A stretch of 64,000 bases of DNA from Tateyamaria omphalii (GTDB lineage Bacteria > Pseudomonadota > Alphaproteobacteria > Rhodobacterales > Rhodobacteraceae): NCBI RefSeq assembly GCF_019802125.1, contig NZ_JAHVHT010000009.1:1-64000 (forward strand), written 5' to 3'. The notes under the pieces are model-generated. The model worked only from the letters and a program-made list of their open reading frames with translations, was not told the DNA's origin and did not search any database. Positions 17,984 to 29,822 of the stretch are shown in pieces (position 1 is the first letter of the stretch; every line of letters begins with the position of its first letter). A program made the translations under genes and the position numbers.

Positions 17984-18340
17984 TGGCAATGCTCACTGCA
18001 GTGAAACCGGGAAGGTTGATCAATGTGCGAGTGTGCAATCCACGTGCCTGATCCTGTCTTTGGTACGCAAAACACATAGGTGCCGAGATATGGCGGCACA
18101 AGATGTGTGATGTGCGGCGGGACATACGTGGCGTGCGGCCGTTCCGGTCCAAGATCGGTTCATGTTCGGTCGGGGTGAGCGTTTCGGTTGCAGATGGAGG
18201 CCATCCCGGGTTTAAATTTCACGCCTGAAAGCCTTTGGCTTGAACCTGTCGCGGAATTGTATACTACAGCATACAATTTGCGCGCGGAGGACCGGAAACC
18301 GCGTGCGTCACTGTCGGAATGCAAGACGCGGATAGGCCCC
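17984..18340. other. Divergent intergenic region between the ABC-F gene and acnB
   Basis: This 357-base stretch carries both divergent promoters. Apart from the inverted repeat at 18255-18278 described separately, I see no gene, terminator or other repeat in it. Confidence 0.5.
18255..18278. promoter_or_regulatory. Inverted repeat upstream of acnB, candidate operator
   Basis: AATTGTAT and ATACAATT form a perfect 8-bp inverted repeat around an 8-base spacer, 63 bases before the acnB start. Its inner core can be written TGTATAC-N4-GCATACA (18258-18275). A site of the same design, TGTATAC-N4-GTATGCA, precedes the glyoxalase-like gene at 49449-49466. GntR-family regulators often bind GTATAC-like palindromes; the actual regulator is unknown. 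Confidence 0.5.
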
Positions 18341-21133
18341 ATGACCCTTTATACTGAATACCTGACCGAGATCGAAACACGCGCGGCGCAAGGGTTGAGC
18401 CCCAAGCCGATTGATGACGGTGCGCTGACCGGCGAAGTCATCGGCCATATTCGGGATGCAGGCAGTCCACATCGCGACGACTGCCTTAACTTCTTCATTT
18501 ACAATACGTTGCCCGGCACGACCAGCGCGGCAGGTGTGAAGGCGGCGTTCCTCAAGGAGATCATTCTTGGTGAGGTCGTGGTCGAGGAAATCACCCCCAC
18601 CTTTGCCTTTGAGTTGTTGGGACACATGAAGGGCGGCCCCTCGGTCGAGGTGCTGCTGGACCTGGCGCTTGGCAAGGATGAAGGGACGGCCAAGAGCGCG
18701 GCGGACGTTCTGAAAACGCAGGTCTTTTTGTACGAGGCGGACACCGACCGGATCAAAGAAGCGTATGAGGCGGGCAATGAAATTGCTGCGGAGTTGCTGG
18801 ATAGCTATGCCAAGGCCGAATTCTTCACCAAGCTGCCCGACATCGATGAAGAGATCAAAGTCGTCACCTATGTTGCCGCCGAAGGTGATATCTCGACCGA
18901 TCTGCTGAGCCCCGGCAACCAGGCGCACTCACGCGCAGACCGCGAATTGCACGGCAAGTGCCTGATTTCGGAAGAGGCGCAACAGGAAATCGAGGCGCTC
19001 AAACTCAAGCACCCGGATGCCCGCGTGATGCTGATCGCGGAAAAGGGGACGATGGGTGTCGGCTCGTCCCGGATGTCGGGTGTCAACAACGTGGCATTGT
19101 GGACCGGGAAACAGGCCTCACCTTATGTGCCTTTCATCAACATTGCCCCTGTTGTGGCCGGCACAAATGGGATTTCGCCGATCTTTCTGACCACCGTTGG
19201 TGTGACGGGCGGCATCGGTGTCGATCTGAAGAACTGGGTCAGGAAGATGGGTGAGGACGGCAAGCCGATCCTCAACAACGATGGCAACCCGATCCTGGAA
19301 CAACGCTATTCCGTCGAAACAGGCACGGTGCTGACCATCAATACCAAGTCGAAGAAGCTATACAGTGCGGATGGCAAGGATGAGCTGGTTGATATGGCCG
19401 GATCGTTCACGCCGCAGAAGATGGAGTTCATGAAGGCTGGCGGGTCCTACGCCATCGTCTTTGGCAAGAAACTGCAGACATTTGCGGCTGAGACGCTGGG
19501 CGTTGAGGCACCGGCGGTCTTTGCCCCTTCGAAGGAGGTCAGCCATGAGGGGCAGGGCATGACCGCGGTTGAGAAGATCTTCAATGCCAATGCCCTTGGC
19601 ACCACGCCGGGCAAGGTTCTGCACGCAGGATCCGACGTTCGGGTGCGGGTCAATATCGTGGGCTCGCAGGACACGACAGGCCCGATGACGGCGCAAGAGC
19701 TTGAGGCGATGGCGGCCACTGTCCTGTCTCCTTCCGTCGACGGCGCCTATCAGTCGGGGTGTCACACAGCATCGGTCTGGGATGCCAAGGCACAGGCCAA
19801 TACCCCGAAACTCATGCAGTTCATGAACCGCTTCGGTCTTGTCACCGGGCGCGACCCCAAGGGTCAGTATCACGCGATGACGGATGTCATTCACAAGGTT
19901 CTGAACGACATCACGGTCGATGACTGGGCCATCATCATCGGGGGCGACAGCCATACGCGGATGTCGAAGGGCGTGGCATTCGGTGCGGATTCCGGGACCG
20001 TCGCGCTGGCGCTTGCCACGGGCGAGGCGTCCATGCCGATCCCGGAGTCGGTCAAAGTCACCTTCAAGGGCAAGATGGCGGACCACATGGACTTCCGTGA
20101 TGTTGTCCATGCCACCCAGGCGCAGATGCTCGCCCAGCACGGGGACAACGTTTTCCAGGGCCGCATCATCGAAGTGCATATCGGGACGCTGCTGGCCGAC
20201 CAGGCCTTTACGTTCACCGACTGGACAGCGGAGATGAAGGCGAAGGCGTCCATCTGTATTTCGAACGACGACACGCTGATCGAAAGCCTGGAAATCGCTA
20301 AAAGCCGCATTCAGATCATGATCGACAAGGGGATGGAGCATGACAACGGTATGCTCGCCAAACTGATCAGCATCGCGGAACAGCGCATCGCGGATATCAG
20401 ATCGGGCACGAAACCCGCGCTGATGCCGGACGAGAACGCAAAATACGCGGCCGAGGTGGTCGTTGATCTTGACGAGATCATCGAACCCATGATCGCGGAC
20501 CCCGACGTCAACAACATCGATGTGTCAAAGCGTTATACCCACGACACCATCCGTCCGATTTCCTTCTACCGGGCCGAGAAGAAAGTGGACCTCGGCTTTG
20601 TGGGTTCCTGCATGGTTCACAAGGGCGACATCAAGATCGTGGCGCAGATGCTCCGCAATCTTGAGGCGCAGTATGGCAGTGTCACCTTCAAGGCGCCGCT
20701 TGTTGTCGCGGCCCCCACCTACAACATCATTGATGAGCTGAAGGAAGAGGGCGACTGGGCCATTCTGCAGAAATACTGTGGCTTCGAATTTGATGATGCC
20801 GCGCCAAAGGTCAAGGCACGCACCGAGTATGAGAACATCCTCTATCTCGAGCGTCCGGGCTGCAACCTTTGCATGGGCAACCAGGAAAAGGCGGCCAAGG
20901 GGGACACCGTCCTTGCCACCTCGACCCGGCTGTTTCAGGGCCGCGTCGTGGCTGACAGCGAAACCAAGAAAGGTGAATCGCTGCTCGGGTCGACCCCGGT
21001 CGTGGTCCTGTCCGCAATTCTGGGCCGCACACCGACGCTGGAGGAATACAAGGTCGCCGTCGACGGCATTGACCTGACCAAGTTTGCACCGCCACTGACC
21101 AAGCCGCTGGACAGCTTGTCGGTTCACTTCTGA
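18341..21133 (+). CDS. acnB: Aconitate hydratase B / 2-methylisocitrate dehydratase
   Basis: This TCA-cycle enzyme isomerises citrate and isocitrate with a [4Fe-4S] cluster; AcnB types can also dehydrate 2-methylisocitrate. The 930-aa chain is somewhat longer than E. coli AcnB (about 865). It has the N-terminal HEAT-like domain (about 1-160), the swivel segment, SGCHTASVWDAKAQ, GGDSHTRMSKGVAFGADSG, and the cluster cysteines in GFVGSCMVHKGD and ERPGCNLCMGNQEKA. The start at 18341 (MTLYTEYL) matches the family N-terminus; an upstream in-frame extension from 18188 is not protein-like. A core metabolic gene on a repABC replicon suggests a chromid. Confidence 0.96.
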   Translation: MTLYTEYLTEIETRAAQGLSPKPIDDGALTGEVIGHIRDAGSPHRDDCLNFFIYNTLPGTTSAAGVKAAFLKEIILGEVVVEEITPTFAFELLGHMKGGPSVEVLLDLALGKDEGTAKSAADVLKTQVFLYEADTDRIKEAYEAGNEIAAELLDSYAKAEFFTKLPDIDEEIKVVTYVAAEGDISTDLLSPGNQAHSRADRELHGKCLISEEAQQEIEALKLKHPDARVMLIAEKGTMGVGSSRMSGVNNVALWTGKQASPYVPFINIAPVVAGTNGISPIFLTTVGVTGGIGVDLKNWVRKMGEDGKPILNNDGNPILEQRYSVETGTVLTINTKSKKLYSADGKDELVDMAGSFTPQKMEFMKAGGSYAIVFGKKLQTFAAETLGVEAPAVFAPSKEVSHEGQGMTAVEKIFNANALGTTPGKVLHAGSDVRVRVNIVGSQDTTGPMTAQELEAMAATVLSPSVDGAYQSGCHTASVWDAKAQANTPKLMQFMNRFGLVTGRDPKGQYHAMTDVIHKVLNDITVDDWAIIIGGDSHTRMSKGVAFGADSGTVALALATGEASMPIPESVKVTFKGKMADHMDFRDVVHATQAQMLAQHGDNVFQGRIIEVHIGTLLADQAFTFTDWTAEMKAKASICISNDDTLIESLEIAKSRIQIMIDKGMEHDNGMLAKLISIAEQRIADIRSGTKPALMPDENAKYAAEVVVDLDEIIEPMIADPDVNNIDVSKRYTHDTIRPISFYRAEKKVDLGFVGSCMVHKGDIKIVAQMLRNLEAQYGSVTFKAPLVVAAPTYNIIDELKEEGDWAILQKYCGFEFDDAAPKVKARTEYENILYLERPGCNLCMGNQEKAAKGDTVLATSTRLFQGRVVADSETKKGESLLGSTPVVVLSAILGRTPTLEEYKVAVDGIDLTKFAPPLTKPLDSLSVHF

Positions 21134-22231: not shown

Positions 22232-22954
22232 ATGTTTCGGAGCACCCCGCACATCGTTGCGCATAGGATCGAGAGCCAAACGCCGCTGAGGGGTTTTCTG
22301 GGTTTCACGGTCCTTTTCGGGCTGATGCTGGTGCTGGCGTCTCTTTATGCCTTTGGCACGGCCATCGTGCCGCTTGCGCTGTTTGGAAGTGCCGCTGTGG
22401 TTGCGGCATACGGACTGGTTTGCAGTTATGCCCACCCGGTACTGGGATTGTGTAATGTCATCACGCTGTTGCGCGTAGCCTTGGTCGCCTTTCTGGTCGG
22501 CGCCGTTTTTGCCCCTGCGGTGTCCGCGTGGGTGGTGTTTGCGGTGGCCCTTGTCGCCTTTGCACTGGACGGTGTGGATGGGTGGCTGGCGCGGCGTGCG
22601 GGCCTTGCGTCGGAGTTCGGCGCACGCTTCGACATGGAGACGGATGCCGGTCTGGGTGCGGTGATTGCCCTGTGGCTGCTGGTCAGCGGCACCACCGGGC
22701 CCGAGATCCTGGTCCTCGGCTTCATGCGCTATGCCTTTGTCGGCGCCGGGTTCCTTTGGCCTGCCTTGCGGGCGCCGCTGCCGCCATCGTTCCGGCGCAA
22801 GGTGATCTGCGTTGTCCAGATCGCGGCCCTTATCCTGCTGCTTTTCCCGCCCGTGCCGGATGTGATCGGTGTGCCCGTGGCCGCTGCCGCGGCAGTGCTG
22901 CTTGCCTGGTCCTTCCTCGTCGACATTCTCTGGCTTGCAAGGCGCTCTGCATGA
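22232..22954 (+). CDS. CDP-alcohol phosphatidyltransferase family protein
   Basis: This 240-aa integral membrane enzyme should displace CMP from a CDP-activated donor by an alcohol, as in phospholipid or inositol-lipid synthesis. The complete family motif is present: DGVDGWLARR, then GLASEFGARFDMETD, with the four metal-binding aspartates. Six or so hydrophobic helices surround it. The ATG at 22232 with GGAAAA upstream was preferred to a TTG at 22220. It is the first gene of the seven-gene operon and overlaps the next by ATGA. Substrates cannot be predicted. Confidence 0.88.
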   Translation: MFRSTPHIVAHRIESQTPLRGFLGFTVLFGLMLVLASLYAFGTAIVPLALFGSAAVVAAYGLVCSYAHPVLGLCNVITLLRVALVAFLVGAVFAPAVSAWVVFAVALVAFALDGVDGWLARRAGLASEFGARFDMETDAGLGAVIALWLLVSGTTGPEILVLGFMRYAFVGAGFLWPALRAPLPPSFRRKVICVVQIAALILLLFPPVPDVIGVPVAAAAAVLLAWSFLVDILWLARRSA

Positions 22955-24564
22955 CACGGGTTGCCGGGCTCGCTCTTGCCGCGGCGGTGATTTTTGCCGT
23001 GCTGGTGCTGCCGAACCACCCCGGTACGATGAAGTGGAGTGCGCTGAATCGCTGGCCCTTGGAACTGCCGGTTCTGCTGTTGGGGGCGGTGGCCATCGGG
23101 CGGCGCTGGGGCGTGACCCATGTCGGTGCCTTTGTTCTGGTCGCGGCGGTTGTCATCAAGCTGGCCGACTACGGGATGTTCACTGCGTTCAATCGGACGT
23201 TCAACCCGGTGCTCGATCTGTTCCTGGTGGGCGCCGGTCTGTCGCTCTTGCGGGACAGCGTGGGGACCATGTTGGCGGTGCTGGCCGTGGTCGGGGCTTG
23301 TGCCGGGCTTGTCATCCTTTTCATTGCGATTGAGCGCAGCCTGCGCGTCTGGGCTGCCTTGTCCCCCCGGCCGCTGGTGCGATGGTCGGCGGCGATACTT
23401 GCTGTCGTCGGTGCAGGCTGGGCCGCGGCGGATGCGGGACATCACCTGGACGTCTGGCGTTTCGACAAGAGCCCGCCCGGCACGGCGTGGACAACGCGCC
23501 TGACCGTCAAGCGCGGGATCGAGGTGCGCCAAACTGCGGTGGACCTGGCACGCTTTGCCGACGAGGCGCAGCGGGACGCCTATGCCGATGCCACCGGTCT
23601 GCTGGATGCGCTTGACGGGCGGGATGTCATCCTGATCTGGATCGAAAGCTATGGGCGTGCGAGTTTCGACAACCCGCTCTATGCGCCGACGCATCTGGCA
23701 ACGCTGCGCGCTGCCGAAGCCGAAATTGCCCGGACGGGAATGGCGATGAAGAGCGGTTGGCTGACGTCGCCGACCGCAGGCGGTCAAAGCTGGCTGGCCC
23801 ATGGCGCTTTGGCAAGCGGGCTTTGGACGTCCGACCATGGGCGCTACAAGGCGATGCTGGCCAGCGGGCAGAAGTGGTTGTTCCACTTCGCGCGGGACGC
23901 AGGCTACCGCACCACCGCCGTGATGCCCGCGATCACGATGGGCTGGCCCGAGAGCCTGGCGATGGGATTTGATCATGTCTTTCCCGCCGCAGATATCCCG
24001 TACGAGGGTGATCCGTTCCGCTGGGTGACGATGCCGGATCAGTTCACGCTGGCCGCATATCGTGACCTCTTGCCTGCCGATCCGCGCCCGGATTTCATTC
24101 AGATCGCGTTGATCTCGTCCCACGCCCCTTGGACACCTATCGCCGAGATGGTGCCGTGGGACGCGGTCGGGGATGGGACGATCTTCAACGACATGGCGGC
24201 GCGTGGCCCTGCGCCCAAGGATTTGTGGCGCGACCGGGATGCGGTGCGTGATGCATACCGCCGGTCCGTGGACTACGCTTTGCGCGTCACGTTTTCGCAC
24301 GTGGCGCGCCTGGGCGATGCCGCCCCGCTGGTGATCGTTGCGGGTGATCATCAGGCCGCAGGCTTCGTGGCGGGCAGCGACAACAAGGATGTTGCCGTTC
24401 ACATGATCGGCCCGTCCGATGTCATTGAGCGCATCGACCATTGGAACTGGACCGATGGGCTGATCCCTGCGGGCGACGGCCCTGTGCGGCGGATGGACAG
24501 TTTCAGAGACGACTTTCTTGACGCATTCACCCGCGCGCAGGTTTCGGAGATAGTGGCAAGATGA
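22951..24564 (+). CDS. Membrane sulfatase/phosphoglycerol transferase-like protein
   Basis: This 537-aa alkaline-phosphatase superfamily protein has five or so N-terminal membrane helices (to about residue 155) and a large extracytoplasmic catalytic domain. Catalytic-type segments are ILIWIESYGRASFDN (metal-binding E followed by the nucleophile region) and VIVAGDHQAAGF (metal-binding DH). The layout resembles LtaS/OpgB-type enzymes that transfer phosphoglycerol or phosphoethanolamine to lipids or glycans. ATG 22951 overlaps the preceding stop. An open frame extends upstream through the previous gene but is out-of-frame shadow. Head-group transfer is inferred from architecture. Confidence 0.78.
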   Translation: MTRVAGLALAAAVIFAVLVLPNHPGTMKWSALNRWPLELPVLLLGAVAIGRRWGVTHVGAFVLVAAVVIKLADYGMFTAFNRTFNPVLDLFLVGAGLSLLRDSVGTMLAVLAVVGACAGLVILFIAIERSLRVWAALSPRPLVRWSAAILAVVGAGWAAADAGHHLDVWRFDKSPPGTAWTTRLTVKRGIEVRQTAVDLARFADEAQRDAYADATGLLDALDGRDVILIWIESYGRASFDNPLYAPTHLATLRAAEAEIARTGMAMKSGWLTSPTAGGQSWLAHGALASGLWTSDHGRYKAMLASGQKWLFHFARDAGYRTTAVMPAITMGWPESLAMGFDHVFPAADIPYEGDPFRWVTMPDQFTLAAYRDLLPADPRPDFIQIALISSHAPWTPIAEMVPWDAVGDGTIFNDMAARGPAPKDLWRDRDAVRDAYRRSVDYALRVTFSHVARLGDAAPLVIVAGDHQAAGFVAGSDNKDVAVHMIGPSDVIERIDHWNWTDGLIPAGDGPVRRMDSFRDDFLDAFTRAQVSEIVAR

Positions 24565-25466
24565 CCCTGCACTGGATCAAGTTCGCGGTCTCCGCAGGCG
24601 GCCTTGCCCTGTTGCTGTGGTGGACGGATGCCCCAGGCGTGCTGGCCCGACTGCAGGGCGTGGATCACACTTGGACCCTGTTGGCGCTTCTCTCGGTCAC
24701 CGCGGCGACGTTCGCGATGGCGAGCCGTTGGATGATCGTGGCGCGCGCCTTTGACATTCACATCCCCTTTTTGGCCGCCTTGCGAGAATACTATCTCGCG
24801 CAGCTGATCAATCTGGCCCTTCCCGGCGGCGTCGCAGGTGACGTGACGCGGGCGGTGCGCGCCCGGCAGGCCGCCGATCTGAAGCGCGCGGCGCAATCGG
24901 TCATGGCGGAGCGGTTGCTGGGTCAGATCGTCATAATGGGTTTCATGCTGCTTGGTTTTGTCGGGGCGGTTGTGCTGCCGGGCGGGCTGAACTGGGGTGG
25001 ACTGGGTTGGTTCGTTCCGGGTCTGCTGGTTGTTTCCGTGATCGGCGCTTTGGCGATTGCGAAGACGGATACCGCAACGGCCCGGTTCGTTCGCATGACC
25101 GGTGACATGACCCGACAGCCGGTCATGCTGGTGCATGGAGCAGTCACGACCTTCTGCCTGATCTTCGGCTTCTATGCCTGCGCGCGCGCCACAGGCGTTG
25201 TCCTTCCTGTTGAGGCGTGGGCAACGCTGATACCGCTGGTTCTGACGGCGATGCTGATCCCCCTGTCCATTGGCGGTTGGGGGTGGCGGGAAGGTGCGGC
25301 TGCCGCGCTGTTTCCACTCATCGGCGCACCAGCCAGCGCCGGTGTCGCGACCGGTATCACATACGGGCTGGTGCTTGTGGCTGCGACGCTGCCGGCGGCG
25401 GTCTTCCTTCTGCTTCCAGGTTTTTCATCCACCCTCTCAACCAAAGGCAAAGCTGACATATCATGA
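24561..25466 (+). CDS. Flippase-like membrane protein (LPG synthase TM / YbhN family)
   Basis: This 301-aa polytopic membrane protein belongs to the family covering the membrane region of lysylphosphatidylglycerol synthase (MprF) and the AglD/YbhN proteins. Features include LREYYLAQLINLALPGGVAGDVTRA in the first half and MLIPLSIGGWGWREGAAAALF near 220-240, both conserved in the family. It lacks the cytosolic lysyltransferase domain, so lipid translocation is more likely than synthesis. ATGA overlaps join it to both neighbours. In this operon it could flip the product of the phosphatidyltransferase or glycosyltransferase. Confidence 0.82.
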   Translation: MTLHWIKFAVSAGGLALLLWWTDAPGVLARLQGVDHTWTLLALLSVTAATFAMASRWMIVARAFDIHIPFLAALREYYLAQLINLALPGGVAGDVTRAVRARQAADLKRAAQSVMAERLLGQIVIMGFMLLGFVGAVVLPGGLNWGGLGWFVPGLLVVSVIGALAIAKTDTATARFVRMTGDMTRQPVMLVHGAVTTFCLIFGFYACARATGVVLPVEAWATLIPLVLTAMLIPLSIGGWGWREGAAAALFPLIGAPASAGVATGITYGLVLVAATLPAAVFLLLPGFSSTLSTKGKADIS

Positions 25467-26455
25467 CGCAACCTGCACATCTCACCCGCCGTTTCTTTCT
25501 TCAGACCAGTGCTGCCGCAGGCATGGCCACCGCTGCCGCAGGCGTGCCTGCATTTGCGGCCACGTCCGTGAATTTCCAATTGTCCTGGCTGCATTCGGTG
25601 CAGTTCGGTGGCAGCTACATTGCTGCCAGCAAGGGGTATTGGAGCGACCTTGGTCTCGATGTCTCGCTGAGCCAGGGTGGCCCGAATGCGCCTGTGGAAC
25701 CGCCCGTGGTGTCGGGGACGGCGCTCGTCGGGATTTCCGCGGCTGACTATACCGCTGCCGCCGTGGCGCAGGGCGCGCCGTTCAAGATCATTGCCGTGGC
25801 GATGCAGAAGAACCCCTTTGCCATCGCGTCGCTGGCAGGCAATCCGGTGAACACGCCCGCGGACCTCATTGGCAAGCGTATCGGGATGGCAGTTGCGAAC
25901 ACGCCGGTGCTGCAGGCGCTGTGCACGCTGAATGACATCGACATCAACGATATTGACATCGTGCCGACGCAATACGATCCCGCCCCGCTTGTCAGCGGTC
26001 AGGTCGACTGTCTTTTGTGTTGGGAGACCGACCTGCCGGTTGCCATGACCGTGCAGGGTGTCGACAACACAACGATGCTGATGGCCGATCACGGCTATGC
26101 CTTGCATTCCCAGACCTACATCGCCACCGAAGATGCGCTTGCCAATCGGCGCGCCGATCTGGTGGCCTTGCTGAAGGGCGAAGTGATGGGCTGGAACGAT
26201 TACTTAGCGGACACCGATGCCGCCGCTGCCCTCGCGGTCGAGATGTTTCCCGATGCGGGGCTCGATCTTGAGGCGCAGAAGCTGCAGGCCGCGCGGCAGG
26301 TGCCGTTGATGTTCAGCGATCTCACGGCAGAGAACGGGTTTGGCTGGTTCACCGACGAAACGGTGGCCTCCAACATCGAAACGCTTGCCCTGCTGGGGCA
26401 GGATGTGTCGGCGGATCTGTGGGACCGGTCCCTGCTTGAAGAGGTGCATGGCTGA
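25463..26455 (+). CDS. NMT1/SsuA-type ABC transporter substrate-binding protein
   Basis: This periplasmic binding protein (330 aa) has a twin-arginine signal (LTRRFFLQTSAAAG, cleavage near AFA-A). The mature domain begins FQLSWLHSVQFGGSYIAASKGYW, the classic opening of NMT1/THI5 proteins (LxWxxxxQFAGxYxAxxxGYY), which bind pyrimidines, thiamine precursors, sulfonates or similar small molecules. It overlaps the flippase-like gene by ATGA, which is odd for a transporter gene and argues that both act together. It feeds the ATPase and fused permease downstream. Ligand unknown. Confidence 0.88.
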   Translation: MTQPAHLTRRFFLQTSAAAGMATAAAGVPAFAATSVNFQLSWLHSVQFGGSYIAASKGYWSDLGLDVSLSQGGPNAPVEPPVVSGTALVGISAADYTAAAVAQGAPFKIIAVAMQKNPFAIASLAGNPVNTPADLIGKRIGMAVANTPVLQALCTLNDIDINDIDIVPTQYDPAPLVSGQVDCLLCWETDLPVAMTVQGVDNTTMLMADHGYALHSQTYIATEDALANRRADLVALLKGEVMGWNDYLADTDAAAALAVEMFPDAGLDLEAQKLQAARQVPLMFSDLTAENGFGWFTDETVASNIETLALLGQDVSADLWDRSLLEEVHG

Positions 26456-26479
26456 GCCACCTGCGAGGTTTGCCCGGAC

Positions 26480-27223
26480 ATGGCCAGCGTCGACATAGAG
26501 TGCAGTGACGCCAGCAAGCGCTTTGGCGCGACGGAGGTCGTCGCACCCTTGTCGATCGCGCTGAAGGCCGGGCAGACGACAGCACTTGTCGGGCCCTCGG
26601 GCTGCGGAAAGTCGACGATCCTGCGCATGATTGCGGGGCTGGAGGACCCGGACACCGGCACCGTCATGCTCGGGTCCGAACCGCCTCGGGCCGTGGCGCG
26701 GCGTGGCGGTCTGGCGATGGCGTTTCAGGATCCTTCGCTGCTGCCGTGGCGCAGCGTGCGCGCCAATATCGCCTTGGGTGCGGAGCTGGCCCGCAAACCG
26801 GCCAAGGATGTCGATGCGCTGATAGAGCTTGTCGGGCTGGGCGGGTTTGCCGGACACCGGCCTGCGGAACTGTCGGGTGGTATGCGGCAGCGGGCGGCGA
26901 TTGCACGCAGCCTGATCTCGGCCCCTGATGTGCTGTTGCTGGATGAACCCTTTGGCGCGGTCGATGCCATGACGCGCCGACGTTTGAACACCGAGCTTCC
27001 GCCCCTGTGGCGGTCGCGCGGGGCGACGGTTGTCCTGATCACCCACTCCGTCCAGGAAGCGGTGCTTCTGTCTGACCGTGTCTTGGTACTGTCCCCGCGG
27101 CCCGCCTGTATCGTGGCCGACATCGCCGTCGATCTGACGGGTCCGCGCGATGCGCACTTGCTGGAGACGACCGAAGCGCTTGCATTGTCGCGCGAGGTGC
27201 TTTCGGCGCTGGAGGGTGTGTGA
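26480..27223 (+). CDS. ABC transporter ATPase (SsuB/TauB type)
   Basis: This 247-aa importer ATPase carries Walker A GPSGCGKST, Q-loop AFQDPSLLPW, signature LSGGMRQRAAIARSL, Walker B LLLDEPFGAVD and the switch histidine in LITHSVQEA. The Q-loop wording is typical of the nitrate/taurine/sulfonate class, which matches the substrate-binding protein. It begins 24 bases after the previous gene, the only real gap in the operon, and touches the permease gene at its stop. Confidence 0.92.
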   Translation: MASVDIECSDASKRFGATEVVAPLSIALKAGQTTALVGPSGCGKSTILRMIAGLEDPDTGTVMLGSEPPRAVARRGGLAMAFQDPSLLPWRSVRANIALGAELARKPAKDVDALIELVGLGGFAGHRPAELSGGMRQRAAIARSLISAPDVLLLDEPFGAVDAMTRRRLNTELPPLWRSRGATVVLITHSVQEAVLLSDRVLVLSPRPACIVADIAVDLTGPRDAHLLETTEALALSREVLSALEGV

Positions 27224-28755
27224 TGGCAGCCCTGCGTGCGCTTGGGTGGGGCCTGTTCTTTCTCGCGATTTGGGAACTTCTGGCGCGCGTCAGTGCTCAG
27301 GACGTGCTGCTGAGTGGTCCATCGGACATCGCCGTTCATATCAGCGGGAACGTTGGGCTTCTGGCGCGTGCGACACTCGAAACCTCGATCAACGCGATGT
27401 GGGGATTTGTTTGGGGCAACCTAGGCGCAGTGCTTTTGGGCGCTGTCATCATGCTGGTACCGCGCAGCGAGCGGACGCTGTTGGCGCTTGCCTTGCTGGT
27501 GTTCTGCGTGCCTTTGATTGCGAGTGGCCCGATCTTGCGGGTGCTGTTCGGAACCGGCACCGGGCCGCAGGTAACGCTGGGGGCGCTGGCTGTCTACTAC
27601 ACCACCTTGCTGACATTTCTGATCGGGCTGCGGTCGGTGTCGCAGAACTGGACCGACCTGATGCGCATCTACGGGCGAGGGGCGCTGTCCACGCTGATAC
27701 GTGTGCGTGCGCGGGCCAGTCTGCCGTATCTGTTTGTTGGCCTGCAGATCAGTGCACCAGCCGCCTTCCTTGGCGCGATGATCGGTGAGTTCACGGGGGC
27801 GGAACGGGGGCTGGGTGTTCTGACGTTGCGCGCCATGCGCGGGTTGGACACCGACGCGACATGGACTCTGGCGCTGGTTGCCGCCCTGATCGCGATGGCT
27901 GCCTATACAGTGCTTGGATGGCTTGGTCAGCGCGTCGTTGGCTACCGGCCGGTCGTTCTGTTGTCCGCACCGGCGTCATCCGGGCCAAGGACGCCGTGGG
28001 CCGCCCTTGCCGAGATCGGGTTCATCGTGTTCCTGGTCCTGATCCTGTGGCAAGCATCGATGGACGTGTTCGAGCTGAACCGCTTCTTTGCAAAACGGCC
28101 CGGCGATGTCTGGACCTTCGTGATGGAGCCGCAAAACCGAAGCACCCTGTTGTCTGCGTTGGGCGAGACATTGGCGTTTGCGGCGCCGGGCTATGTGGCC
28201 GGTTTGGCGTTGGGTGCCGGGCTTGCGGTCCTTCTGGTTCTGTCGCCGCGCCTGAGCACGGCGGCCATGCCCGTGGCCGTGGCGCTGCGTGCCGTGCCCA
28301 TCATAACCACGGCGCCTCTTCTCGTGCTCGCATTCGGGCGCGGGCTGGTCGGGACCATGGTGGTTGTCGCGGTGATGATCTTTTTCCCGACATTTGTTGC
28401 CTGTCAGCAGGGTCTGCGTCAGACGCCTGGCCAGATTGTGGACGTCTTCAGAAGCTACGGCGCCGGGCGTTGGCATGTGCTGCGCGCCGCGCAGGTCCCG
28501 GCAATGCTCCCTGCTTTCTTCGCCTCGGCGCGTATGGCGGTTCCCGCAGCGCTGCTTGCGGTCACGACGGTGGAGTGGCTTGCCACGGGCAAGGGGATTG
28601 GCGTCTTGATGGCCATGACGGCCAGCACATCGAACTACAATATGCTTTGGTCCTGCGTGGTCGTCCTCGCCATAGTTGCAACAGCGGTCTATGGGATTGT
28701 TGCCGGGATCGAGCGTGCGGTTCTTCGCATCTATGCAAGCGAGCAGGTGACATGA
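27223..28755 (+). CDS. Fused tandem ABC permease (two transmembrane domains)
   Basis: This protein has 510 aa, twice the usual size of SsuC/TauC permeases, because two permease domains are joined. Each has its own ATPase-coupling loop: RIYGRGALSTLIRVRARASL near residues 147-166 and DVFRSYGAGRWHVLRAAQVP near 406-425. The halves have diverged, so the transporter has an asymmetric membrane unit in one chain. ATG 27223 shares its first base area with the previous stop (TGATG); a GTG at 27220 is the alternative. It overlaps the glycosyltransferase gene by ATGA. Confidence 0.87.
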   Translation: MAALRALGWGLFFLAIWELLARVSAQDVLLSGPSDIAVHISGNVGLLARATLETSINAMWGFVWGNLGAVLLGAVIMLVPRSERTLLALALLVFCVPLIASGPILRVLFGTGTGPQVTLGALAVYYTTLLTFLIGLRSVSQNWTDLMRIYGRGALSTLIRVRARASLPYLFVGLQISAPAAFLGAMIGEFTGAERGLGVLTLRAMRGLDTDATWTLALVAALIAMAAYTVLGWLGQRVVGYRPVVLLSAPASSGPRTPWAALAEIGFIVFLVLILWQASMDVFELNRFFAKRPGDVWTFVMEPQNRSTLLSALGETLAFAAPGYVAGLALGAGLAVLLVLSPRLSTAAMPVAVALRAVPIITTAPLLVLAFGRGLVGTMVVVAVMIFFPTFVACQQGLRQTPGQIVDVFRSYGAGRWHVLRAAQVPAMLPAFFASARMAVPAALLAVTTVEWLATGKGIGVLMAMTASTSNYNMLWSCVVVLAIVATAVYGIVAGIERAVLRIYASEQVT

Positions 28756-29822
28756 TCAGAGCCGTTTTTGCGATACCCGGGGACAAGGATCGCCGCACAG
28801 GTGGTTTCATCTATGAGGCGCGCATTCTGGCAGAGCTGAACGCGCTGGGATGTGATACGGCGCATCTGCAACTGCCGGACAGCTTTCCCGATCCAACCCC
28901 GATTGACATGCACGCGGCCCTTGATGCGCTGAAGGCCGTTCCGGGGGACGTGCCGATCATACTGGATGGCCTGGTCTTTGGCGCAATTGATCCTGCGGGT
29001 CTCGCCCAAGTTGCTGCGCCCGTGATTGCGATGGTTCATCATCCTCTTGGTCTTGAAACGGGTCTGTCCAAGGCACGTGCCGACTTCCTGCTCCAAAACG
29101 AGGCAGAGGCGCTGCGTCACACCGACCATGTCATCGTGCCAAGCCCTGAAACGGCACGTGTCCTGTGCCGTGATCTGGGTGCTGATCCGGAGAGGATCAC
29201 GGTGGCGCTGCCAGGATTTGACAGGCCCACTGTCAACCGTGCTCCGATTTACCCTCCACTCATCCTGTCCGTCGGATTGCTTGCGCCGCGCAAGGGGCAC
29301 GATCTGTTGTTGTCGGCACTTGGGCAACTGCGAGATTTGAGCTGGCAGGCGGATATCGTGGGCAAGACACACGACCCGGAATACGCTGCCTCACTTCACG
29401 ATCAGACGGCAGCCTTGCGCATCGAAGATCGCGTTTCGTTTTCGGGTGAAGTGGAGCAAGCGGGACTTGCGGCCCGTTTCAATGCCGCGACTGTTTTCGC
29501 GCTCGCCACGCGCTACGAAGGCTATGGCATGGTCCTGAGCGAGGCCATGCAATACGGCCTGCCGGTCGTGTCGTGCAACGTCGGAGCCGTTCCGGAAACC
29601 GTTGGTGCGGCGGCCATGCTGGTCCCGCCCGAAGATCCTGCAACGCTTGCAACTGCATTGCGCCAGATCATTCAAGACCGGTCGAAAGCCAAGGAGTTGT
29701 CCGAGTTGTCAGTGAGCAAAGCTGCTACGCTTCCCCGATGGGAGGAGACTGCGGAGATATTTGTTTCGGTGATCAACCGTCTTGGTACGGACAATGCGTC
29801 GGAACGCTCGGGGTTTTCATGA
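28752..29822 (+). CDS. GT4-family glycosyltransferase
   Basis: This 356-aa cytoplasmic enzyme has the GT-B fold of family 4 retaining transferases. The C-terminal nucleotide-sugar domain shows LILSVGLLAPRKGHDLLLSA, ALATRYEGYGMVLSEAMQYG (the E-x7-E motif) and PVVSCNVGAVPETVG. The N-terminal half, with FAIPGDKDRRTGGFIYEARI, is the acceptor domain. It is the last gene of the seven-gene operon and overlaps the permease by ATGA, so it is translated together with a transporter. Donor and acceptor are unknown; a lipid acceptor made by the upstream enzymes is a reasonable guess. Confidence 0.85.
   Translation: MIRAVFAIPGDKDRRTGGFIYEARILAELNALGCDTAHLQLPDSFPDPTPIDMHAALDALKAVPGDVPIILDGLVFGAIDPAGLAQVAAPVIAMVHHPLGLETGLSKARADFLLQNEAEALRHTDHVIVPSPETARVLCRDLGADPERITVALPGFDRPTVNRAPIYPPLILSVGLLAPRKGHDLLLSALGQLRDLSWQADIVGKTHDPEYAASLHDQTAALRIEDRVSFSGEVEQAGLAARFNAATVFALATRYEGYGMVLSEAMQYGLPVVSCNVGAVPETVGAAAMLVPPEDPATLATALRQIIQDRSKAKELSELSVSKAATLPRWEETAEIFVSVINRLGTDNASERSGFS

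Follow-up and report, generated by a model that had tools for sequence, protein, structure and literature searches.

A seven-gene operon of Tateyamaria omphalii is probably the import form of a modular envelope pathway for a pterin-like compound

Why should genes of lipid head-group chemistry and a flippase-like protein be joined, on one strand, to a small-molecule importer and a glycosyltransferase? This question is raised by a stretch of 64,000 nucleotides from Tateyamaria omphalii (the window), which comprises bases 1-64000 of contig C9 (73.6 kb) in a genome of 4.49 Mb and in which seven genes, here called A to G, occupy positions 22232-29822 of the + strand. The original prediction had seen in them a single system whose importer supplies a precursor; comparison with other genomes indicates that the operon is probably the import form of a modular envelope pathway for a pterin-like compound derived from guanosine triphosphate (GTP), a molecule that relatives synthesise themselves. 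The families named in that prediction for the seven same-strand genes were all confirmed by Pfam, as follows:

22232 to 22954, + strand: gene A, a PgsA-like CDP-alcohol phosphatidyltransferase (PF01066, CDP-OH_P_transf, 56 bits, over the cut-off)
22951 to 24564, + strand: gene B, a membrane transferase of the alkaline phosphatase superfamily, LtaS/OpgB-like (Pfam Sulfatase, 31 bits)
24561 to 25466, + strand: gene C, an LPG_synthase_TM flippase-like protein without the synthetase domain (PF03706, 102 bits, residues 5-275 of 301)
25463 to 26455, + strand: gene D, an NMT1/THI5-type binding protein with a twin-arginine-like signal (PF09084, 129 bits, cut-off 20.5)
26480 to 27223, + strand: gene E, the ATPase of an ATP-binding cassette (ABC) importer (PF00005, ABC_tran, 115 bits)
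27223 to 28755, + strand: gene F, a fused double permease (PF00528, BPD_transp_1, matched in two stretches; alternative GTG start at 27220)
28752 to 29822, + strand: gene G, a GT4 glycosyltransferase common to the importer and synthesis forms (PF00534, Glycos_transf_1, 107 bits)

Do these genes belong together or do they only happen to be neighbours? Two sets of relatives were compared, namely a panel of 149 genomes of the window's family, one per genus by group codes, and the loci of the best 80 of 557 relatives obtained by a GT4 alignment search of named genomes, a set which is biased to close kin and overlaps the panel (L133, L134, L140, L148, L157 and L194 share the GT4 with a panel genome; three-digit handles in G denote genomes, those in L loci or stretches). 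In the panel, B was found in 20 genomes, D, at 72% identity or above, in 14 and both in 12, a co-occurrence with a Fisher p of 6e-11, in which, as in all of our Fisher tests, phylogeny is not taken into account; the count of D left out a match in G024 (36% identity) and a second copy in G048 (48%). Eighteen of the 20 panel loci with B were opened, and most of those bearing D showed the order A-B-C-D-E-F-G or near variants of it; in G037 the importer lies about 5 kb from A-B in the opposite orientation. Among the 80 named loci, D is present in 57, always with E, F and G (the last being the query by which the loci were found), in 48 cases with both A and B, and in 36 with C, which is often absent beside D; the full order on a single strand is kept in 34 of the 57. 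The linkage of the genes is therefore more than chance, given this one-strand order and the co-occurrence of D and B in the panel. The lipid and importer genes are not mostly apart in relatives (of the 14 panel genomes that have D, 12 also have B), and two of the checks that the original prediction had proposed, gene order in other genomes and co-occurrence of the importer with the lipid enzymes, both speak for the single system. Since G is present in all 14 panel genomes with D, the closest partner of the importer is the GT4 rather than the lipid genes, and the importer-GT4 order is kept both on plasmids and on contigs as large as 2 Mb. By best tblastn piece, D is the best-conserved gene of the operon, with a median identity to the window of 74%, followed by E (60%), F (56%), G (51%), A (49%), B (47%) and C (41%); binding proteins are usually the most variable part.

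Importers of the same NMT1 type, paralogous to this one and with a fused permease, were noted at L061 9310-12732 and L062 6881-10156 (48% and 36% identity to D), and neither the GT4 nor the lipid genes had a match in these two stretches. The neighbours of the importer paralogues (the second G048 copy, 48%; G024, 36%) were considered as a source of clues to the ligand and gave none, being a CoA-transferase, an RNA helicase, a FAD oxidoreductase/GcvT fusion and a ProC-like protein.

Within the window, nearly all of the junctions had been described as ATGA overlaps; this holds for four of the six (A/B, B/C, C/D and F/G), but E/F overlap in a different register (TGATG if the start is ATG, GTGTGA if it is GTG), and D and E are separated by a gap of 24 bases, the D stop ending at 26455 and the ATG of E lying at 26480. 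In the loci of relatives that could be measured, the nearest start gives a four-base overlap in 34 of 43 cases for A/B, 22 of 34 for B/C, 10 of 36 for C/D, 0 of 56 for D/E, 43 of 57 for E/F and 47 of 57 for F/G, counts in which the choice of the nearest possible start favours overlaps. Contig C9 is probably a plasmid, because 76% of the 25 kb compared (20000-44999) matches the Tateyamaria omphalii plasmid pDOK1-4-2 at 83%, the seven-gene order being identical there, and because the operon genes of Dinoroseobacter shibae are located on plasmid pDSHI05. By its translation, the stretch 18188-21133 of the window is an Aconitase B (AcnB) gene on this plasmid-like contig; AcnB is present on Leisingera caerulea plasmids and is not annotated in the T. 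omphalii plasmid stretch compared.

How, then, do relatives that have the envelope genes and no importer obtain the molecule? Plasmids of one Rhizobium and one Agrobacterium combine homologues of A, B, C and G with genes for RibA, a RibD_C reductase, a PTPS-like protein, a zinc alcohol dehydrogenase (ADH), an S-adenosylmethionine (SAM) methyltransferase and a cytochrome b, and these gene sets led us to search for synthesis genes in the eight panel genomes with B and without D. By synthesis set we mean PTPS-IV, SAM methyltransferase and RibD_C reductase, mostly with the zinc ADH and sometimes with RibA. In G074, G106 and G104 the ADH, PTPS, SAM methyltransferase and RibD genes stand within the same locus, with RibA also in G074, and in G118 the synthesis genes are on a separate contig. 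Over the whole panel, PTPS is found in 12 genomes and G in 22, of which 21 have D or PTPS; the exception, G147, is a 73% complete genome whose locus is cut at a contig edge, where a piece of permease adjoins G. Four genomes (G008, G017, G054 and G101) have PTPS and no G at the threshold used, a more distant GT4 adjoining PTPS in each, and D and PTPS overlap in G063 only. The earlier claim that the importer supplies a precursor is thus supported by biosynthetic genes of GTP/pterin type which replace the importer beside the same GT4.

The named loci give the same picture: within the stretches, D is present in 57, PTPS in 11, both in none and neither in 12, and no match to PTPS, ADH, SAM methyltransferase, RibD or RibA was found in any of the 57 loci with D. 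The 11 PTPS loci all have SAM methyltransferase and RibD, 9 have ADH and 5 RibA. Whole-genome searches of the named set were made for PTPS in 50 genomes and for D in 22 genomes; of 43 genomes whose locus has D (43 of the 57 D loci being covered), one, that of Roseivivax halotolerans (G177), has PTPS, and none of 10 genomes whose locus has PTPS (10 of the 11 covered) has D. As regards the 12 loci with neither, L118, L136, L168 and L172 have PTPS elsewhere and no D, D was found genome-wide for L134, L157, L120 and L147 (the search for PTPS covering L134 and L157 only), the genome of L179 holds both, and L146, L178 and L187 were left unassigned by these searches. In a GT4 tree of 107 rows, at least six changes between the import and synthesis states are needed, of which well-supported branches force two, and a tree that places every synthesis row on one side is rejected (approximately unbiased test, p 0.0007). 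For this tree, stops in tblastn rows were treated as X, no state was given to L153, L179, L082 and L146, the state of L120, L147, L178, L187 and L089 was scored as import from a permease adjoining the GT4, and whole-genome searches decided for synthesis in L118, L136, L168 and L172 and for import in L134 and L157. On the number of changes and the rejected tree, it is well supported that importer and synthesis set have been exchanged more than once beside the GT4. By its PTPS feature, the operon of the window is a proposed import replacement and not a member of the PTPS-IV clusters: no FGPAQ-type PTPS was found in the window's genome at E 1e-20.

Three genomes, G063, G194 and G177, hold both the importer and PTPS. 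In G063 (L025 11340-14300), D has a frameshift and an in-frame stop, the permease F is broken, and the PTPS set stands on another contig; in G194 (L179) the frame of the ATPase is shifted. The lesions, several in G063 and one in G194, are those of draft assemblies; as a control, D, E and F of the 57 importer loci showed one stop and no frame change, the single stop codon lying within the permease tblastn match of L117, which is Litoreibacter arenae. Decay of the importer in a genome with the synthesis set is, like gene content, order, co-occurrence and the repeated exchange, a direct observation.

How far does each form reach? In a class-level panel of 385 genomes, few of which are from the window's own family, the window's own genome was the only one with a match to D (E 1e-60), and 44 genomes had one to PTPS (E 1e-20). 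Twenty of these 44 PTPS loci were opened, hand-picked, mostly high-scoring and found via PTPS; ADH, PTPS, GT4 and SAM methyltransferase occur together in all 20 and RibD in 16, and the GT4 adjoining PTPS always matches G or its homologue of Rhizobium, Streptomyces or Methylosinus. A is present in 5 of these loci, a subclass of MdoH (described below) in 5 and B in 2, and 10 have neither A nor the MdoH subclass in the stretch, so that a CDP-alcohol transferase or the MdoH subclass beside PTPS is common and not universal. PTPS was also found in twenty plasmid records, of which seven more were opened: the plasmids of Streptomyces fungicidicus, Microbacterium, Methylosinus, Thiodictyon and Neorhizobium carry ADH, PTPS and GT4 with a fourth gene whose annotation is methyltransferase or hypothetical, the Microbacterium one (L227) being a synthesis form with the order A-ADH-PTPS-GT4-methyltransferase-C-RibD. 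The wide spread of PTPS against the narrow one of D makes the importer look like a derived replacement of an older biosynthetic set, mainly in Rhodobacterales. A contig labelled Microbacterium kunmingense (L170) carries the importer form A-C-D-E-F-G and could be contamination; its GC fraction is 0.727, while three further stretches from this genome range from 0.657 to 0.714.

What could the molecule be? From the families of the synthesis genes (PTPS-IV, RibA, RibD_C) we infer that it is derived from GTP via a diaminopyrimidine and hence pterin-like. The PTPS of the synthesis form carries the FGPAQ motif in 14 of 14 aligned sequences, in 11 of 11 named loci and in 29 of 30 class-level loci checked, and its nearest solved relative is SCO6650 of S. 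coelicolor (3d7j, 175 bits by profile), which has reportedly lost the zinc and PTPS activity and is said to have a pterin-like pocket. Near the PTPS gene of Streptomyces fungicidicus is a gene of the creatininase family, which in archaea includes hydrolases of formamidopyrimidines (FAPy); 4 of the 20 class-level loci also show weak matches. As to the binding protein D, it matches the solved structures 4nmy (best, 47 bits by phmmer) and 3ix1, a formylaminopyrimidine binder, and THI13/THI5. Export of D by the twin-arginine translocation (Tat) pathway, as originally proposed, is consistent with a twin-arginine start visible by eye in the translation, but the NCBIfam Tat model is absent among the matches of D. 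FGPAQ is given as the signature of PTPS-IV, with PF00925 and RibD_C as reported neighbours, in the accessible part of PMC5445326, whose text there says GTP cyclohydrolase I where Pfam has PF00925 as GTP cyclohydrolase II; the synthesis-form PTPS has HGA in the place of the HGH of known subfamilies (PMC5041015, in the part available). In the open-licence literature we found no demonstrated product of a PTPS of this type and no description of this gene system, in agreement with the earlier statement that no described pathway has this combination.

While there is good support for a single system and for the exchange between importer and synthesis set, the chemistry, including the ligand, the order of the steps and the lipid or glucan end point, is read from the protein families. 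D, E and F would take up a small GTP-derived pterin-like molecule, either a pteridine or a diaminopyrimidine, which other bacteria would make with PTPS-IV, zinc alcohol dehydrogenase, SAM methyltransferase, RibD_C reductase and, in some cases, RibA. G would glycosylate the imported molecule in the cytoplasm and A would join the product to phosphatidate from CDP-diacylglycerol; A is one of four PF01066 matches in the genome, and its translation contains the complete motif DxxDGxxARx8Gx3Dx3D, which we take to be the active-site motif of CDP-alcohol phosphatidyltransferases. The lipid would be flipped to the outer leaflet by C, and B would act in the periplasm on its head group, which it might hand on to a glucan made by MdoH/MdoG. 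Among 20 aligned B sequences, E232, S280, D466 and H467 are invariant, and no invariant or near-invariant cysteine, such as that of the CxPxR motif of formylglycine-type sulfatases, was found.

Is a lipid, then, the destination? Among the 25 panel genomes with D or PTPS, 16 have B, 8 a particular subclass of MdoH (L214-L221) and one (G008) a partial MdoH at a contig end, and B and the subclass occur together in none of the 25. The subclass is found in 8 of the 149 panel genomes, all with D or PTPS and none with B; the two members tested have their best score, though below the cut-off, with NCBIfam NF003963 and exceed the cut-offs of two other MdoH models. The subclass may have a dedicated role and not be a general synthase of periplasmic glucans. 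Each supply is found with each downstream module (12 genomes have D and B, 2 have D and the MdoH subclass, 5 have PTPS and B, and 6 have PTPS and the subclass, G063 being counted twice), and we therefore read the pathway as composed of a supply part and an envelope part, each of them exchangeable, with the GT4 as the constant link. MdoH in general, considered as a partner, is in 74 of the 149 panel genomes and hence uninformative; only the subclass is informative. A lipid destination, as originally proposed, is likely but not the only one, since G011 and G125 carry the importer and the GT4 with an MdoH-type glucosyltransferase in place of B. A doubtful, though still serious, alternative is that the end product would be a decorated periplasmic glucan and the lipid donor made by A only an intermediate, C flipping it and B handing the phosphate-linked head group to the MdoH/MdoG glucan, much as OpgB transfers phosphoglycerol to glucan. 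The occurrence of mdoG in 18 and mdoH (subclass included) in 17 of the 57 D loci, the position of mdoG/mdoH of Dinoroseobacter shibae adjoining the cytochrome b and A, and the MdoH subclass of panel genomes with D or PTPS and without B would fit such an end point; however, the general frequency of MdoH deprives its presence of much meaning, clusters with A and C are found in actinobacteria, which to our knowledge have no such periplasm, and no solved structure related to B was found at the thresholds applied.

Two further elements of these loci deserve mention. In L028, L029 and L042 (G018, G065 and G094) A-B is joined to a sugar importer of the MalE/UgpC type, a third supply variant, with MdoG in G018. 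A small cytochrome b of the b561 type (e.g., L064 10829-11386) is present in 40 of the 57 importer loci, usually adjoining A, and is possibly a redox partner; the cytochrome b query had no match in the window.

The preferred reading, import of the molecule that others synthesise, has also to be weighed against the possibility, which we regard as unlikely, that the importer brings a different molecule and that PTPS and importer genomes make two envelope compounds sharing the GT4 and A-B-C. The ligand is not fixed by sequence, the SAM methyltransferase is lost together with the rest of the set, and the sugar-importer variant pairs A-B with another supply, all of which such a view would accommodate; against it stand the near-complete mutual exclusion of the two forms, which have the adjoining GT4 and both downstream modules in common, and the matches of D to pyrimidine-related proteins. 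Very improbable is an ordinary importer of thiamine pyrimidine or sulfonate that merely adjoins envelope genes on plasmids. D does belong to the NMT1 family, with weak SsuA/TauA scores far under the cut-off, and the operon is on plasmids in several species; yet the GT4 order is kept on large contigs as well, G accompanies D in every panel genome that has it, and a thiamine-pyrimidine importer was rejected because the window has no Rfam match at the gathering threshold, hence no thiamine pyrophosphate (TPP) riboswitch near the operon. A part in coenzyme F420 biosynthesis, an archaeal role assigned to PTPS-IV from unpublished work in the available part of PMC5041015, is hardly conceivable and was rejected, as CofH (FO synthase) is over the cut-off in 7 of the 149 panel genomes and in 0 of the 25 with D or PTPS, the matches of G122 and G130 being far under it.

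Several observations weigh against uptake of the molecule that relatives synthesise, or limit its scope. G177, Roseivivax halotolerans, has one cluster of each kind (L153, L210), each with its own GT4 and with matched parts that are free of stops. B is missing from G011 and G125, which do have the importer and the GT4, so some genomes can dispense with the full A-B-C module, and G018, G065 and G094 have A-B and the sugar-type ABC importer without D, PTPS or G, so A-B can serve something else. Four named genomes have PTPS outside the GT4 locus, and the run ADH-PTPS-GT4 is missing from two of the seven additional plasmid loci with PTPS (in Streptomyces sp. NBC_00028, PTPS is without ADH and GT4 neighbours; in Rhodobacteraceae bacterium SC52 the GT4 is absent). 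The best solved match of D, 4nmy, is listed without a named ligand, and linkage cannot separate pterin from pyrimidine or lipid from glucan.

If the operon is indeed an import form, a more far-reaching picture may tentatively be drawn, in which a glycosylated pterin-like molecule is anchored in the envelope as a phospholipid head group, or passed on to a periplasmic glucan, most lineages making it from GTP and Rhodobacterales such as this one scavenging it, while the cytochrome b encoded close to many of the loci exchanges electrons with the redox-active compound. A strain with the importer would offer a direct route to the product of an uncharacterised bacterial pathway: D is a ready-made probe for the ligand, and mutants of an importer strain should lose the product unless fed. 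A pterin-like envelope compound would add a new class to the molecules of the membrane or periplasm, and some bacteria would live on such molecules released by others.

How does the system compare with those already known? The synthesis form has the same FGPAQ PTPS as the PTPS-IV neighbourhood (FGPAQ-type COG0720; SCO6650, 3d7j), whose GTP cyclohydrolase II and RibD_C neighbours are in print (PMC5445326, in its accessible part); the steady GT4, zinc ADH and SAM methyltransferase partners, the envelope modules and the replacement by an importer are absent from the portion of the published description found. With the NMT1/THI5 pyrimidine importers (3ix1, THI13/THI5), D shares the binding-protein family and the solved relatives, whereas the operon differs in its low similarity (47 bits), in the lack of a TPP riboswitch in the window, in the fused permease and in the tie to a GT4. 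B resembles the phosphoglycerol transferases LtaS and OpgB in having a domain of the Sulfatase superfamily behind an N-terminal part, and in a Glu/Ser/Asp-His pattern which we presume to correspond to the LtaS residues, but it has no NCBIfam or solved-structure match at the thresholds used, adjoins a CDP-alcohol transferase and stands in an operon with a GT4. Finally, C differs from the flippase MprF in lacking the synthetase domain, in its length of 301 amino acids and in scoring far under the cut-off of the bifunctional MprF model, and shares with it the LPG_synthase_TM domain.

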